This document shows, in pieces, positions 1 to 63,549 of a stretch of 64,000 nucleotides of DNA. Made by a program: the position numbers and the translations under genes. The notes beneath the pieces are model-generated. The model did no database searches, was not told where the DNA came from, and saw nothing but the letters and a program-made list of their open reading frames with translations. Source of the stretch: Candidatus Woesearchaeota archaeon. Its GTDB lineage: Archaea; Nanobdellota; Nanobdellia; Woesearchaeales; ARS49. Within the stretch, counting starts at the first letter, position 1. Every line of letters starts with the position of its first letter. The stretch is from NCBI GenBank assembly GCA_016215315.1, contig JACRKG010000019.1, forward strand, positions 1 to 64,000, written 5' to 3'.

Positions 1-135
1 CATAAATTGGGAAAATTTATGCGCAGTTTCGTCCGCAGAACACTCTGCGGCGAAGCCGCTTCAAAAAAATTTCGAAAGAAAACGACCTAAAGGTCGGGGT
101 ATTCAACCCCCAGAAATTTTGCTTCGCAAAATTTC
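1..135. repeat. Cluster of short inverted repeats/hairpins
   Basis: CATAAATT(1-8)/AATTTATG(14-21); CCGCAGA(33-39)/TCTGCGG(44-50); GCGGC-GAA-GCCGC(47-59); CGACCT-AA-AGGTCG(83-96); GAAATTTTGC-TTC-GCAAAATTTC(113-135). Confidence 0.8.
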
Positions 136-12064: not shown

Positions 12065-12105
12065 AAGAAAATTAAAAAAAGAGGTGTTTTAAAGATTGTT
12101 GTGAT

Positions 12106-12141
12106 ATAGTTTACAGTTCGCGGTTTGTAGTTTACAGTTAA
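12106..12141. repeat. Heptamer-type tandem repeat (GTTTACAGTTCGCGGTTTGTAGTTTACAGTT)
   Basis: ~7-nt periodic repeat; related sequence at 46034, 50434, 54361, 63457. Confidence 0.6.
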
Positions 12142-45571: not shown

Positions 45572-46033
45572 ATGAACAAAGAAGACTGGGAAAAACATTA
45601 CTTGTTGAAGAAAGAGCTTGAACACAAATTATTAAACAACGTTAGAAACAATCATGTTGTTCTTGAAGAATTACTCAACCAAGTTAATGATCATTGGATT
45701 TATGAAGATAAGGTTTACCGATTTTATCATCATAGTTTCAAAGCGTACCGATTGCAAGAATCAACTAAACAAATTGTTAATACATTGCAATCTTTGCTTC
45801 CTGAGCGTGAAATGAATACTTGGTTCAAGCAAATAGTGAGCGAAGGCACTGGTAAAGTGTTTGATTTATCACATAATCAAGAATGGCTCCAACACACCAG
45901 ACCAATTCTTGAAGCGTTCTTTCATTCTAAATATTTCTTAGAAATGGCTGTTAAGTATTCTTCTTTAGAAGCTCCTCCAGAAGTATTACCTAGTGGTTAT
46001 GCGGGACTTCTTTATTTGTTTGATTTGAGATAA
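45572..46033 (+). CDS. Hypothetical protein
   Basis: 153 aa ORF. Confidence 0.6.
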   Translation: MNKEDWEKHYLLKKELEHKLLNNVRNNHVVLEELLNQVNDHWIYEDKVYRFYHHSFKAYRLQESTKQIVNTLQSLLPEREMNTWFKQIVSEGTGKVFDLSHNQEWLQHTRPILEAFFHSKYFLEMAVKYSSLEAPPEVLPSGYAGLLYLFDLR

Positions 46034-46093
46034 TAGTTTGGAGTTTACAAGTAGATATTGTTAAAACTCGACTTTGTTTTTTTATTTTTTGAT

Positions 46094-46308
46094 TTTCTCA
46101 GTTTCAGCCGCCAGAATCGTGTGCGTATAATATTTTTTGCTGATCAGGCGGCAATAACAAATGACAATAAAAGGTCAAAAAGCTTTTTGAGTGCACTTAC
46201 AAAATTCTTTCATTATCAATTTCCGCAGCAGCGGCGTTAATGTTCCGAACGCAAAGAGAATAATAAAACTTATTGAGCAAATAAATCAAGCGTTCGGCAA
46301 GGGGAAAA
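46094..46308 (+). ncRNA. Candidate structured element copy A
   Basis: TTTCTCAG-N5-GCCGCC(46107-46112)...GTGTGCG...GGCGGC(46147-46152); CCGAACGC(46244-46251)/GCGTTCGG(46289-46296)CAAGGGGAAAA. Confidence 0.6.
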
Positions 46309-46387
46309 TTTTTAAGAAATTAAAAAAAAATTCAATTAAAAAACCACAAAAAACCAATTCGGACTTATTGATTGAGAGTTATTTAAT

Positions 46388-48229: not shown

Positions 48230-48429
48230 ATAAGCTTTGCTCGATGGGCGCTTTGTAGAGTACTTTGTGTGATTGTGATCAAATGGAATCAAAACATTAC
48301 TGGTGGTCGGATGGCAGATAAGCTCAGGTGGTGCAAGTAGAAAACTTTTGTTTTTATCATTTGTCTCTGTCGCCAGAGATGCATTAAACTTAACTCGCAC
48401 ACTTAGCGATGGCGACTGGAACTGAGAAA
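48230..48429 (-). ncRNA. Candidate structured element copy D
   Basis: Reverse strand TTTCTCAG-N5-GTCGCCA...GTGTGCG...TGGCGAC...ACAAATGA...AGTAATGTT...ATCGAGCAAAGC. Confidence 0.5.
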
Positions 48430-48483
48430 GACCAAATGCAACGATAAACTAAAAAAAGTCTTTGACAAATACAAGCACGCATT

Positions 48484-49721: not shown

Positions 49722-50438
49722 ATGAAATATGAAAATTTAAAGAACAAAGTTGTAATGGTTACCGGAGCAAGTAGTGGTTTGGGTGAAGCTTTAGCTAGAG
49801 CATTTATTGAGAATGATTGTACTGTTTACTTAAGTGCTAGAAGTAAAGATAAGCTCGTTGCTCTTTCTGAAGAATTGGGTGATAGAGCGATTCCTTTATC
49901 GCTTGACGTTACCAATACTTATCAAGTTTATACCGCTGCTGAAAGAATTATTAATGAACAAGGAAGAATTGATGTTTGGGTTAATAATGCTGGTGGAGAG
50001 AAAAAATCTTCACTAAGTGAATTAACTCCAAAATTATTAAATGATATCACTGCAGTTAATTATTTTGGTTTAGTTTATGGAACTCAAGCAGCAGCAGAAT
50101 ACATGCGCAAACAAAAGGAAGGAGATATTGTTCAAATACTTTCTACTAGCGCATTTACTTCTAGAGCAAATGAGTCTGCTTATTGCGCAGCAAAAGCAGC
50201 AGCATCTTTGTTTTCAGAAAGTGTACAGTTAGAATTGAGAGATGAAGGAATAAGAGTTTTTCCAATCTATCCCGGTGGAATGAATACTGAATTCTTCATG
50301 AAAGCAGGAGCTTCACTGCCTCCAGACTCAATGGAACCAAAAGACATTGCGGACATAGTTCTTAACGCACTATCGCAACCGAGAAATATTATTGTAGTTC
50401 CAAGAATATTTAGGAATAGCGTTAAAAAAAGTTTATAG
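49722..50438 (+). CDS. Short-chain dehydrogenase/reductase
   Basis: VVMVTGASSGLGEALA; NNAGG; YCAAKAA. Confidence 0.93.
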   Translation: MKYENLKNKVVMVTGASSGLGEALARAFIENDCTVYLSARSKDKLVALSEELGDRAIPLSLDVTNTYQVYTAAERIINEQGRIDVWVNNAGGEKKSSLSELTPKLLNDITAVNYFGLVYGTQAAAEYMRKQKEGDIVQILSTSAFTSRANESAYCAAKAAASLFSESVQLELRDEGIRVFPIYPGGMNTEFFMKAGASLPPDSMEPKDIADIVLNALSQPRNIIVVPRIFRNSVKKSL

Positions 50439-50511
50439 TTTGGAGTTTACAGTTTACAAGCGGATAAATTTTACACTAGTTACTACCTACTATGAACTGC
50501 GAACTTTGAAC

Positions 50512-50775
50512 TTTCTCAGCTCAGGCCCCTCGTTGTGTGTGCTTATTGAGTTATTCAATATTTGTGGGGCATAGACAGTCTATAAAAAAAGCCAATGAGT
50601 TCTTCCAGTGCACTTAGAAAATTCTTTTATTATCAATTCTCTTGACACCCAGTAATGTCTATGATACCACGGATAACTTTGATACCAGCAGTTAATCGCG
50701 GCGTCAATGTTCCGAACGCTAAGAACGGAAAAGAACAAGTCTAGCACAATAAACAAGCGTTCGGCAAGGGGAAAA
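50512..50775 (+). ncRNA. Candidate structured element copy B
   Basis: TTTCTCAG-N5-GCCCC...GTGTGTGC...GGGGC; AGTGCACTTA; CAATGTTCCGAACGC(50712-50719)/GCGTTCGG(50757-50764)CAAGGGGAAAA. Confidence 0.6.
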
Positions 50776-50825
50776 ATCAACATCAGAACTCAGAAAAGTC
50801 TTGGACAAATTAAAAAATTAAAAAA

Positions 50826-50924: not shown

Positions 50925-53900
50925 TTAACTGCATCCGCTTGTGCTTCCGCATACTTCGCATAATGTGCAAGTGCCGTTGTTCTTTACTTGCATTGCTCCG
51001 CAGCTTCCGCATTTGCTTCCTGTATAACCCATTTTTACTGCTTTGATTATTTCTTGATCAACTTTGTTAAGATTCACTGCGTGTGATCTTACTTCAGGAT
51101 TTAGTGTTGGTGTTACTATTCCCGAAAATTTGTTTAGTATTAATTCTCTGACTTTGTCAACTGCAGGGTGGCCTTCTATGTTTAGTGTTTCTGCAAGTTT
51201 TACTGGTGCAACACCGTTTTGTAGTGCTACATTCATTGTGTTAGTTAATGCGTTTAGTAATATTTGTTGTGTCGGTGTTGCGTTAGGCATGTCAACACTT
51301 ATTTCTTTAAGTTTGTTATCACGAACAAATGCGCTTACGCTTAGTGTTGTTTTTCCTAATTGGTATTCTGAAACTATTTCTTTAGTATGCACTGGTGCTT
51401 CTTGTTCTTCAACATCAGTTCCAACAAGTTCTAGCATTACTTCATGTTCTTCGCTTACGCTGTTTAGTGGTTGGCTTAGTTTGCTTCCGTCTCTGTAAAG
51501 TGCTACGCATTTAAGCATTAATTCCCAAGAAGTTCTGTAAGCAGTTTTTATTTCTTCAACTGTTGATTCTTTAGGCATATTGATTGTTTTGCTTATTGCG
51601 CCGCTAATGAATGGTTGTGCTGCAGCCATTATTTTTATGTGGCCGTAATGATGTATTGTTCTTTTTCCTTTTCTTCCGCAAGTGTTTGCGCAATCAAATA
51701 TTGCATAATGCTCAATTTTCAAGTGCGGTGCTCCTTCTAAAGTCATTGTTCCGCAAACGTAATCGTTTGTTTCTTCAATTTGTTTTTTTGTGAAATTTAG
51801 TTTTTCAAGCATGTTGAATTCTGGATCGTTCAATTGTTCTTTTGTGAATCCTAATTCGTTTGTGCAGAAATCTTCACCTAGTATGTGTTTGTTGAATACA
51901 AATTTTACGTCAAAAGCAGTTTTTAGTTCTTTTTCTACTGCATCTAGTTTGTTTTGCGTAAAACCATTTTCTTTCAAACTTTTAGAATTAACATGAGGGC
52001 ATCCTTCTAGTGTTGCATGACCTAAACAATATTTTTCTATTTCTTTAATTTGTTCTTCGTTGTATCCTAATCTTTTAAGTGCTTTTGGTACTGCCGCATT
52101 AACTATTTTAAAGTAACCTCCGCCTGCTAATTTTTTGAATTTAACAATTGCAAAGTCAGGTTCTATTCCTGTTGTGTCACAATCCATTGCAAGACCTATA
52201 GTTCCAGTTGGGGCAATATTACTTGCTTGCGCATTTCTAAATCCATATTTTGTTCCATATTCTAATGCTGCATCCCAACATTCTCTTGCCACGTTAAGCA
52301 TGTCTGGAGGACATAATGCTTCATTAATTCCAATTGGTTTAACTGTTAACCCTTCATATTCATCACGTTCAACATTGTATGAAGCTCTTCTATGATTTCT
52401 TATTACTCTGAGCATGTGTTCTTTGTTTTTTGGGTAATTTTTGAATGGTCCTATTATTGCCGCCATTTCTGCACTTGTAGTGTATGAGTGGCCTGTAAGA
52501 ATTGCAGATAATGCCCCGGTAACAGCTCTTCCTTTATCACTGTCATAAGGTATGCCCATCCTCATTAACATAGCTCCAAGATTTGCGTATCCTAATCCTA
52601 AAGTTCTGAATTCATAACTTCTTTTTGCTATTTCTTCGCTAGGAAATTGAGCCATTAATACTGAAATTTCCAATACAATAGTCCATAATCTTATTGTGTG
52701 TAAGTATCCTTGAAGATCAAACTTGCCTGTTTCATCATTATAAAATTTTCCTAAATTTATACTTGCCAAATTGCATGCGGTGTCATCGAGGAAGACAAAT
52801 TCAGAACATGGATTGGTTGCATTAATTCTTCCGTCCTCCGGACATGTATGCCATTCATTCATTGTCGTGTCATACTGCACTCCCGGATCTGCTGATGCCC
52901 ATGCACAATAACCTACATCTTCCCATAATCTTTTTGCAGAAACTTTTTTATGAATTCTTCCATCAGTTCTTCTTATCAAAGGCCAATCATCACTATTATC
53001 TAAAGCGGTAAAGAAATCATTGGGTATTCTTACGCTATTATTACTGTTTTGTCCTGAAACTGTCAAGTATGCTTCTGAATTGTAGTCCGTGTTGAAAACG
53101 TCAACGTCTATTTTTGTAATTCCTTGTTTTACTAATTCTAGAACTCTTACAACATAATTCATTGGGACTTCATTTTTTAGTGCTTCTTTTACTGCCCTTT
53201 TTAGTCCTGGATTCTCTTTTATATCGGTTGTTTTTCCTTCAACTGCTTTTTTCATTATGTGATCTAATTGTTTTTTTAGTATTTTGCTTCCAATTACTAA
53301 ATCTGCTACTTTTTGTTCTTCTTTTACTTTCCACCAAATAAATTCTTCAATATCTGGGTGATCTAGGTCAACACAAACCATTTTTGCAGCTCTTCTCGTT
53401 GTTCCGCCGCTTTTTACTGATGCTGCTGCGCGATCATTTATTTTTAAGAATGACATCATTCCAGAACTTACTCCTCCACCAGATAATTTCTCTCCAGATC
53501 CTCTTAATGACGAGAAATTCGAACCTGTACCCGAACCGTATTTAAAGATCCTTGCTTCTCTAGTTAATAAATCAAATATTCCTCCTTTGCTAACTAAATC
53601 ATCTTTTACTGACTGAATAAAACAAGCATGAACCTGTGCTCTAGAGTATGCGTCTTTTGAGTATTCTAATTCTTCTGTTACAGGGTTCACAAATGAATGT
53701 CCTTGTGCTGGTCCGTTTACTCCATAAGCCCAATGCAAGCCTGTGTTAAACCATTGTGGACTGTTTGGAGAAGCGATTTGTTCTAAAAGCATGTAAACTA
53801 GTTCATCATAAAAGTTTTGAGCATCTTGTTCTGAAGCAAAATAACTGAATTTTTCTCCCCAATAACGCCAGCAACCAGCCATTCTATGAACTACTTGCTT

Positions 53901-54233
53901 AAGACTTGTTTCTGGTCCAAGAACAGGTTCTCCGTTCTCATCAAATAATGGTTTGCCTTCAGAATCTAACTGAGGTATTCCTGCTTTCCTGAAATACTTT
54001 TGAGCTAATATATCTGTTGCTACTTGACTCCAAGTTTTAGGAACTTCAACATGATTCATTTCGAAAACTTTGCTTCCATCAGGATTCTTTATGATTGAAG
54101 AACGTTTAGAATACTCAACCATTGAGTAAGGATCAGAACTGTTTTTAGTGAAGTATTTTAATACCTTAAGACCGCCTACTTTAGCGCTTTCCTCAATCAA
54201 TGAAGTGGTATATTGGCCTTTCAAAAAAATCAC
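50925..54233 (-). CDS. nrdJ: Adenosylcobalamin-dependent (class II) ribonucleotide reductase
   Basis: [37 protein letters not shown]-terminal [28 protein letters not shown]. Confidence 0.95.
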
Positions 54234-54418
54234 CCATTTGGTTTTTTACTCGATGAAATAAAGTAAGAATTGAGGTGTGTTTTTTGATTAATAAATATTA
54301 TCAGAACACAAAATATAGTTTGCATTGAGACATACCTGGAGAGTGGTAAGAAAAAGGTTCATAGTTTACGGTTTGGAGTTTATGGTAAAAAATGGTGTTT
54401 AAAATTAGTGAGTTTTTA

Positions 54419-59962: not shown

Positions 59963-59995
59963 AACTTAAAGATTATTCATTTTTATAATTCTTAA

Positions 59996-60092
59996 CTTTT
60001 TCCCTTGCCGAACGCTTGATTTATTTGCTCAATAAGTTTTATTATTCTCTTAGCGTTCGGAACATTGACTCCGCGCTGCGGAAATTGATAAT
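59996..60092 (-). ncRNA. Candidate structured element copy C (3' part)
   Basis: Reverse strand ATTATCAATTTCCGCAGCGCGGAGTCAATGTTCCGAACGC...GCGTTCGGCAAGGGAAAAA, nearly identical to copy A 3' part. Confidence 0.6.
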
Positions 60093-60341
60093 GGAAGAAG
60101 TTCAGAGAATGCATGAAGAAATTATTGCTTCTTTGAACGCAAATAAAAGAAAAACAGAACAACTAACAAAATAATTAAAGAAATCCAAGCAGAATAAGAA
60201 GAAAAAACAAACTCAGCTTCGGAGTAAATAACAAAATAGGCTGAAACTAGGAATAAAAGAGCAATTAAACTTTTATGTGTTTTTGAAACCATCAAATCAA
60301 AGAGATAGCTTAACAGTTATAAAGATTTATTGATTTATTAT

Positions 60342-62052: not shown

Positions 62053-63549
62053 CTACTTACCATCAACCAACCCTCTAATCATCCTATTCACCACTTCAGG
62101 ACTCGCCTTTCCTTTAGTTAGTTTCATGACTTGTCCAATTAAGTATTGTAGTGCTTTTTCTTCTCCGTTTTTGTAGTCTTGTAGTGCTTTAGGATTTTCT
62201 TTTATTGCTTGTTTGCAGAAATCTTCGATTTCTGCTTGGTTGCTAAGTTGTGCTAGTTTGTTCTTTTCTACGTATTCTTTTGGCGAGAATGGTTTTTGTA
62301 TTAGTTCTTCCATTATTTTTTGTGCTGTGGATTCTGTGATTGTTTTTTTGTCTACTAAGGTTATTAGTTCTGTTAGTTCTTTTTCTCCGAATTTTATGTT
62401 TTTTATTGTTGTGTTGTTATAATTTAGTACGCGTAATAATTCTCTTCTTAGCCATTTTGCTGTTAGTGCAGGATTTGCTTTTTTGGATACTTTTTCGAAT
62501 AAGTCTGCTAGTTCTATTTCTGAAACCATTACTTCTGCATCGACGGGATCGATTTTGTAAGTTTTAATGAATCGTTCTACTTTTTGGTGTGCTAGTTCGG
62601 GAATTTCTTTTTTTAAGTCTTCAGTTAATTTTTTTGTTACATCAACAATGCATAAGTCTGGATCGATTATGTAGCCGTAGTCTTCTTCTGTTTCTTTAGT
62701 TCTTAATTTTTTAGTTGTCTTGCTTATTGAATCCCAGCTGCGAGTTTCTCTTTCTATTTTTCTTCCTGCTTTAATTAATGCTTTTTGTCGAGTTACTTCG
62801 TAAACTAGTGCTCGTTCTAATTCTTTGAATCCTGTAATGTTTTTTATTTCAACTCTCGAATATCCTGATTCTTTTACTGATACGTTTGCGTCAGCTTTTA
62901 TTATGCATGTGTTTATGTCAAATATTTTTAGGTAAGATAAGATTAGGATTAGTTTGTTTAGGAATTCTCTTGCTTGTTTTGGGCTTTCTATGTCTGGTTC
63001 CGTGACTATTTCTACTAATGGATTTCCTGCTCTGTTGTAGTCTAGTAAGGAATAATTTGAGGAATACATTTCTCCAGGGTAAGTGATTGATGCTGGGTCT
63101 TCTTCTAAGTGGATTCTTTTTAGTTTGATTAATTTTTCAGTAGTCTTAATGTGTCCTCCAACTCCTAGAGGTCTTTCGAATTGTGTTATTTGGTAGTTCT
63201 TGCTCATGTCAGGATAAAAGTAACTTTTACGGGAAAATATTAGTTCGGTATCAAGTTTACAGCATAGTGCCATGCATAATTTTATTGCGTAATCAAATGC
63301 TTTTTTGTTCATTACTGGTTTTGAACCTGGATGGCCTAAACAAATTGGGCAGACTCGGGTGTTGGGGTTTTCATTACCTTTAGTTGAGCAAGAACAAAAC
63401 AATTTTGTTTTAGTGTCTAGTTCTACGTGGCATTCAATGCCGATAACAACTTCACTTGTAAACTGGTTTGGAGTTTGCAGTTTGGAGTTTACAGTGAAGT
63501 TTTCTGATGATTTTTTACTGTGAACCGTAAACTGTGAACCGTAAACCAT
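62053..63549 (-). CDS. gatB: Aspartyl/glutamyl-tRNA amidotransferase subunit B
   Basis: VVIGIECHVELDTKTKLFCSC...NPNTRVCPICLGHPGSKPVMN. Confidence 0.95.
   Translation of the reverse strand: MVYGSQFTVHSKKSSENFTVNSKLQTPNQFTSEVVIGIECHVELDTKTKLFCSCSTKGNENPNTRVCPICLGHPGSKPVMNKKAFDYAIKLCMALCCKLDTELIFSRKSYFYPDMSKNYQITQFERPLGVGGHIKTTEKLIKLKRIHLEEDPASITYPGEMYSSNYSLLDYNRAGNPLVEIVTEPDIESPKQAREFLNKLILILSYLKIFDINTCIIKADANVSVKESGYSRVEIKNITGFKELERALVYEVTRQKALIKAGRKIERETRSWDSISKTTKKLRTKETEEDYGYIIDPDLCIVDVTKKLTEDLKKEIPELAHQKVERFIKTYKIDPVDAEVMVSEIELADLFEKVSKKANPALTAKWLRRELLRVLNYNNTTIKNIKFGEKELTELITLVDKKTITESTAQKIMEELIQKPFSPKEYVEKNKLAQLSNQAEIEDFCKQAIKENPKALQDYKNGEEKALQYLIGQVMKLTKGKASPEVVNRMIRGLVDGK

Follow-up and report, generated by a model that had tools for sequence, protein, structure and literature searches.

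The described systems closest to the repeats reported here are the bacterial REP, BIME and REPIN elements with RAYT (TnpA-REP) (PMC3116915, PMC6006769). In these, REP singlets are less conserved than doublets (PMC3116915).

The repeats came to notice in a 64-kb stretch of DNA, analysed in whole and called the window below. A sequence-only reading had proposed a dispersed structured element there, with a covarying stem, invariant single-stranded boxes and a non-coding position, in three copies (A, B and D). Copies from the whole genome support each of these properties: with nhmmer, 121 half-units were counted in the assembly (1.79 Mb), and they make up 89 elements, mostly intergenic.

Hairpin elements in the window

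Copies A, B and D are built as had been claimed, with TTTCTCAG, 5 nt and a complementary stem, and with loops of 34–36 nt that carry GTGTGC. Re-reading gave the same stems: GCCGCC/GGCGGC (A), GCCCC/GGGGC (B) and GTCGCCA/TGGCGAC (D, minus strand). What had been overlooked is that the 3' part of A (46182-46316) is an inverted, diverged hairpin copy, that there is a copy C, and that the family is genome-wide. By itself, the 8-mer TTTCTCAG is about as common in the window as chance predicts (5 occurrences versus 4.3 expected). Two covariance models were built from the copies, R1 for the 5' half and R2 for the 3' half, and the features are as follows.

46090..46316, plus strand: copy A, a complete inverted pair (5' half and 3' half) with convergent genes either side
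46090-46175, plus strand: copy A, 5' half (R1, E 1.8e-10)
46107..46152, plus strand: copy A, 5' hairpin, stem GCCGCC 46107-46112 / GGCGGC 46147-46152, GTGTGC in the loop at 46119-46124
46182-46316, plus strand: copy A, 3' half (R2, E 1.0e-23)
46191..46196, plus strand: copy A, centre GTGCAC, common to all elements (69 aligned 5' units, inner flank included)
46223..46234, plus strand: copy A, internal hairpin of the 3' half, CCGC-AGCA-GCGG; other copies have other sequences, always self-complementary
46245..46297, plus strand: copy A, 3' hairpin, stem CCGAACGC 46245-46252 / GCGTTCGG 46290-46297
46266-46279, plus strand: copy A, inverted box AAACT..GCA in the loop of the 3' hairpin
46298..46311, plus strand: copy A, terminal box CAAGGGGAAAATTT, the inverted counterpart of AAATTTTCTCAG at the 5' end
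50508..50783, plus strand: copy B, a complete inverted pair, its 3' half enlarged by an extra insert, convergent genes either side
50508-50593, plus strand: copy B, 5' half (R1, E 3.9e-12)
50654-50783, plus strand: copy B, 3' half (R2, E 8.2e-17)
48346..48433, minus strand: copy D, a solo 5' hairpin unit flanked by two minus-strand genes (R1, E 3.3e-11)
59989..60123, minus strand: copy C, a 3' half whose partner half is unrecognisable (R2, E 4.3e-21)

Copy C is 90.6% identical to the 3' half of copy A over 127 nt, and copy D has a degraded remainder reaching down to ~48200. Genes around the window copies include those for an ABC transporter, a CYTH protein and a short-chain dehydrogenase. The insert in the 3' half of copy B (CCCAGTAATGTCTATGATAYCA, window 50654-50700) recurs in a copy at C30:20692 of the same genome; AGTAATRTT-like stretches akin to it, perhaps a further module, are present in other degraded copies. 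Elsewhere in the window, a ribonucleotide reductase-like protein is encoded at 50925-54233 on the minus strand, and its relatives on GTDB contigs (58–60% identity) come from bacterial MAGs, a possible case of horizontal transfer.

Anatomy and number of the elements

Each unit is a 6–8 bp stem around a ~35-nt loop with the conserved box TGTGC-N6-AGTT. A full element runs from an outer box, TTTGTTAACAACTTT, through AAATTTTCYC and a hairpin unit to the GTGCAC centre, beyond which a second unit stands inverted. In the 5' half, AAATTTTCTCAG is followed by 5 nt (mostly CTCAG or TTYCA) and a stem of 6–7 bp, whose loop consists of ~8 nt, TGTGC, 6 free nt, AGTT and a T-rich stretch leading to the closing stem; on the inner flank, ATAGACAGTCCATAAAAA or variants of it and a short AGTTNTT stretch reach to the centre. 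The 3' half continues from there with TTATCAAT and a short hairpin of copy-specific sequence (variants include TCCGC..GCGGA, TCAACGC..GCGTTGA and TCGACC..GGTCGA), self-complementary in all 40 copies. Its outer part reads TTCCGAACGC .. AAAACT-N6-GCACA .. GCGTTCGG, then CWAGGRGAAAATTT. The outermost box, TTTGTTAACAACTTT, keeps a nearly fixed distance outside and is found mainly beside 3'-type units; of 21 intergenic occurrences (at most 2 mismatches), 16 lie 28–59 nt outside a unit.

Many 5' halves, that of copy A among them (L093:6085-6205, minus strand, E 1.5e-4), are matched by R2 on their reverse strand as well, indicating that the two halves are homologous. The 3' half is a diverged inverted copy of the 5' half.

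Some copies have the loop swapped for another hairpin, including a 7-nt-period repeat. Repeats of this period (AGTTTAYRGTTTRYAGTT...) are present in the window at 12103-12141, 46028-46051, 50430-50453, 54351-54389 and 63460-63498, and they double as hairpin loops in element copies elsewhere, for example C36:88689 and C49:148493. There is also a longer variant (C36:111081, C36:112634, C23:52380 and C53:11769), in which an extra common outer stretch (TTTACCACTGNTNAGTGGCTACAAAAGCTAAAGC...) with its own small hairpin lies outside the 5' unit.

When the genome, a single draft with contigs broken at IS copies, was searched with the covariance models, 69 5' halves (R1) and 59 3' halves (R2) were matched at E ≤ 1e-3, thus adding dozens of copies with stem-preserving substitutions to those first seen. 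The 3' box GCGTTCGGCAAGGGGAAAA has 30 matches in the genome at up to 3 mismatches, compared to 0 in the reversed control. Inverted pairs account for 32 elements, with 5'-5', 5'-3' and 3'-3' arrangements, and units also occur alone. Solo and paired units are conserved alike, with mean identities of 0.641 versus 0.645 and stems 95.7 versus 97.5% paired. No two copies are near-identical, the best full-length pairs sharing ~80–86% identity. Hence no recent movement is visible, and any movement would lie mostly in the past.

Covariation and the folding strand

Across 69 copies of the 5' stem, 96.6% of cells are paired, compared to 86.4% in shuffles (0 of 500 shuffles), and double-change cells number 41 versus 12 in shuffles; the signal is lost on sliding by 1–3 columns. 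The 3' stem is 100% paired in 23 copies, with double changes at four pairs. On a tree made from the non-stem columns, parsimony assigns ~10 and ~9 type changes to the two variable 5' pairs. These changes are independent, so the covariation does not reflect one inherited change. Between nearest-neighbour copies, free loop positions are 37–43% different and stem plus TGTGC positions 4–6%, a contrast partly due to detection by a model that uses the stem and TGTGC positions.

The wobbles in these stems are one-sided. In the orientation with the AACT..GCACA loop, 5' and 3' units together show 17 G.U versus 2 A.C. On the GTGTGC strand, the non-Watson-Crick pairs of 5' units are C.A or A.C (11:0), and on the GCACA strand the 3' halves have G.U versus A.C at 6:2; for the internal hairpin of the 3' half the count is 3:2. 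This asymmetry points to the strand with the AACT..GCACA loop as the one that folds, probably as ssDNA or RNA, and strand-specific mutation bias is a possible alternative source. For copy A, the minus strand folds better than its shuffles (z –2.9, 0 of 200 better), a difference not seen for the plus strand (z –0.75). Because its halves point opposite ways, copy A has no single GCACA-type strand.

A pseudoknot between GTGC of the centre and GCAC of the loop could form in nearly all copies; its positions are almost invariant, with one convincing compensatory case. Kissing of the two hairpin loops through their N6 stretches was considered and rejected, as these stretches are not complementary when copies are compared by eye.

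The sequence-only reading had left the choice between a structured RNA and an ssDNA-transposon end. A constraint on folding of one strand is borne out by the wobbles, but an RNA nature does not follow, ssDNA having the same signature. Given the inverted hairpin ends, the high, genus-restricted copy number and the species-specific versions, an ssDNA-transposon-like end fits the data at least as well as RNA.

Genomic context

Elements are enriched between convergent genes. Based on gene calls by an ORF heuristic, convergent spacers hold 33 elements versus 14 expected by length (p 8e-7), and divergent spacers 8 versus 25 (p 1.5e-5). In tandem spacers, 13 of 17 solo 5' units are oriented as the upstream gene, the folding strand in these same cases being antisense to that gene. 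Units usually begin tens of nt past a stop codon. No replication-strand bias was seen for solo units relative to the G-rich strand (24:33, p 0.29).

Distribution among relatives

Among hundreds of relatives, the family is otherwise seen only in one genome of the same genus (G001), which was detected only by R2 with filters laxer than those of the large searches. Under the stricter filters, R1, run on 362 genomes of the order, hit none of the 361 others, and R2 matched no other genome in a phylum sample of 382. Virus sequences and GTDB r220 contigs gave no match, though the GTDB scan may omit this genome's own records, and Rfam, proposed earlier as a check, returned no family at either the gathering threshold or relaxed E-values.

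G001, 56% complete, carries a distinct version of the element in at least 12 places; several of these match the models weakly and were accepted on layout. This version has the stem CCGCTTGC/GCAAGCGG and the loop GCACAAGAAG (loop ..AACATTAAGCACAAGAAG). Four of 13 G001 elements lie in spacers orthologous to element-bearing ones here (C49:65235, C30:33260, C27:31490 and C17:11298), compared to ~0.7–1.3 expected by chance on a rough estimate that 5–10% of spacers are occupied. These shared sites are suggestive of some old copies. The remaining G001 sites are not shared with this genome, and none of the few orthologous gene 3' ends sampled had an element.

Search for a mobilising enzyme

The genome is rich in IS elements at contig ends, a Y1 transposase fragment among them. 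No full-length Y1 transposase or RAYT is assembled: a PF01797 search, limited by assembly gaps at IS copies, found one 31-residue IS200-like fragment at a contig end. The IS ends of the genome are unlike the hairpin unit, and IS bodies are collapsed in the assembly. As for longer, autonomous copies, only two pairs of inward-facing units share a contig; the units of a pair are separated by ~0.7–1.0 kb, and no transposase was recognised in that interval.

Recurring IS ends, including hairpin ends of IS200 type (GACCTAAAGGTCGGGG) and the C-terminus of a Y1 transposase, are found at window 1-115 and at most contig ends, and IS copies are inserted into hairpin elements at C2:25028, C7:17222, C8:243 and C31:59722. 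A predicted lipoprotein-like gene at C20:4181-5282 lies between inward-facing 5' and 3' units ~1 kb apart, by chance or possibly as a composite.

Discussion

We favor the view, at a probability of roughly 0.55, that these are miniature non-autonomous hairpin-unit repeats, restricted to the genus, BIME/REPIN/MITE-like and largely old. Their homogenisation by species, mosaic inverted build, placement and genus restriction together create the resemblance to BIME/REPIN populations, and the homogenised version in G001 suggests turnover by amplification. Under such a mechanism, a trans-acting protein, probably an ssDNA-processing enzyme, would recognize the loop boxes and stems on a folded single strand, presumably ssDNA at replication or excision, and would have spread the elements in REPIN/BIME fashion. 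Most copies would now be old, and loss and recombination of halves may have produced the solos and mosaics.

The main rival is a host-functional element at gene 3' ends. Each unit would be a binding site or structured RNA that selection maintains locus by locus, as a terminator, insulator, antisense RNA or chromosome-organising site, with inverted pairs serving convergent genes. It would account for the position of units tens of nt downstream of stop codons, for solo units conserved as well as pairs, and for the 4 of 13 sites common to G001, above chance expectation. It would likewise account for stem and TGTGC positions far more constant than the free loop between nearest-neighbour copies, but that pattern of constraint could also arise in an active lineage before insertion. 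A general role at gene ends is at odds with the occupation of just 89 of ~1800 spacers and the absence of the family from the rest of the order, and most sites differ between the two species. As an mRNA 3'UTR, the element would need to fold on the strand that is antisense in 13 of 17 solo tandem cases, and no promoter was identified. We regard a host function as a serious possibility that is nonetheless improbable.

The elements might instead form a new hairpin class, neither REP nor IS derivative, recognised by its conserved ~35-nt loop while the stem may vary freely; an ssDNA enzyme might mobilise them, or they might act behind ~90 genes as functional elements peculiar to this lineage. We put this forward tentatively.

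Considerably less likely is a family of structured non-coding RNA genes, sRNA-like and multi-copy, with the AACT..GCACA strand transcribed. The wobble bias on one strand and the better-than-shuffled folding of the copy A minus strand are what such genes would produce; however, G.T pairs stabilise ssDNA hairpins too, and the fold z-score comes from copy A alone. The inverted pairs have divergent polarity, no conserved promoter lies upstream of the unit, and the Rfam result counts against a known family.

Integron-like attC sites, folded bottom-strand recombination sites behind genes, share with the unit a structure conserved more than sequence, a bottom strand that folds and a frequent position behind a gene in the same orientation, but this reading was rejected as highly improbable: no R box (GTTRRRY/RYYYAAC) stands at the stem foot, copies lie 10–20 kb apart, in inverted pairs and not in cassette arrays, none of the genome's six tyrosine recombinases is beside an array, and the loop is conserved here whereas attC terminal loops are variable.

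Comparison with known systems

IS200/IS605 elements resemble the family in their subterminal hairpins and ssDNA logic, and the genome does hold a Y1 transposase fragment. Yet the hairpins of IS200/605 do not form terminal inverted repeats with one another, and the IS200-like ends of this genome have other sequences than the unit.

MITEs (PMC10969869) are like the elements in being 200–330 bp long, non-coding, AT-rich, intergenic and genus-specific, with terminal inverted repeats, to which the R2 matches on the reverse strand of 5' halves correspond. The likeness is one of form. Related spacers are too diverged to demonstrate an empty site or a target-site duplication, no parent IS sharing these ends was recognised among the IS ends of this assembly, in which IS bodies are collapsed, and each terminal repeat here is a covarying hairpin.

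The family is not classed as REP, since the GT[AG]G foot, a cognate RAYT and decayed singlets were all looked for without success. In place of GTAG/GGAG, the foot here is CTCAG/TTTCA/TTCCA; no RAYT gene flanked by repeats was found in this assembly, which has gaps at IS copies, and the host lies outside the known REP carriers. Solos are not decayed, and a 6–8 bp stem with a ~35-nt conserved loop stands where REPs have a short closed palindrome. If the reading is correct, recognition follows a different logic here, that of a long conserved loop with an exchangeable stem. The ~90 diverged copies and the sister-species version then offer a natural dataset for asking whether such repeats are parasites, tamed parasites or host sites, and for finding the loop-recognising enzyme. 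In other respects the likeness to REP, BIME and REPIN elements is close: short palindromes outside genes, numbering tens to hundreds and making up ~1% of the genome, inverted doublets and mosaics, compensatory changes in the hairpins and ssDNA-type folding, enrichment in convergent spacers and avoidance of divergent promoters. If the reading is correct, REPIN/BIME-like populations would have arisen in a genus without cultivated members, remote from the hosts known to carry them.
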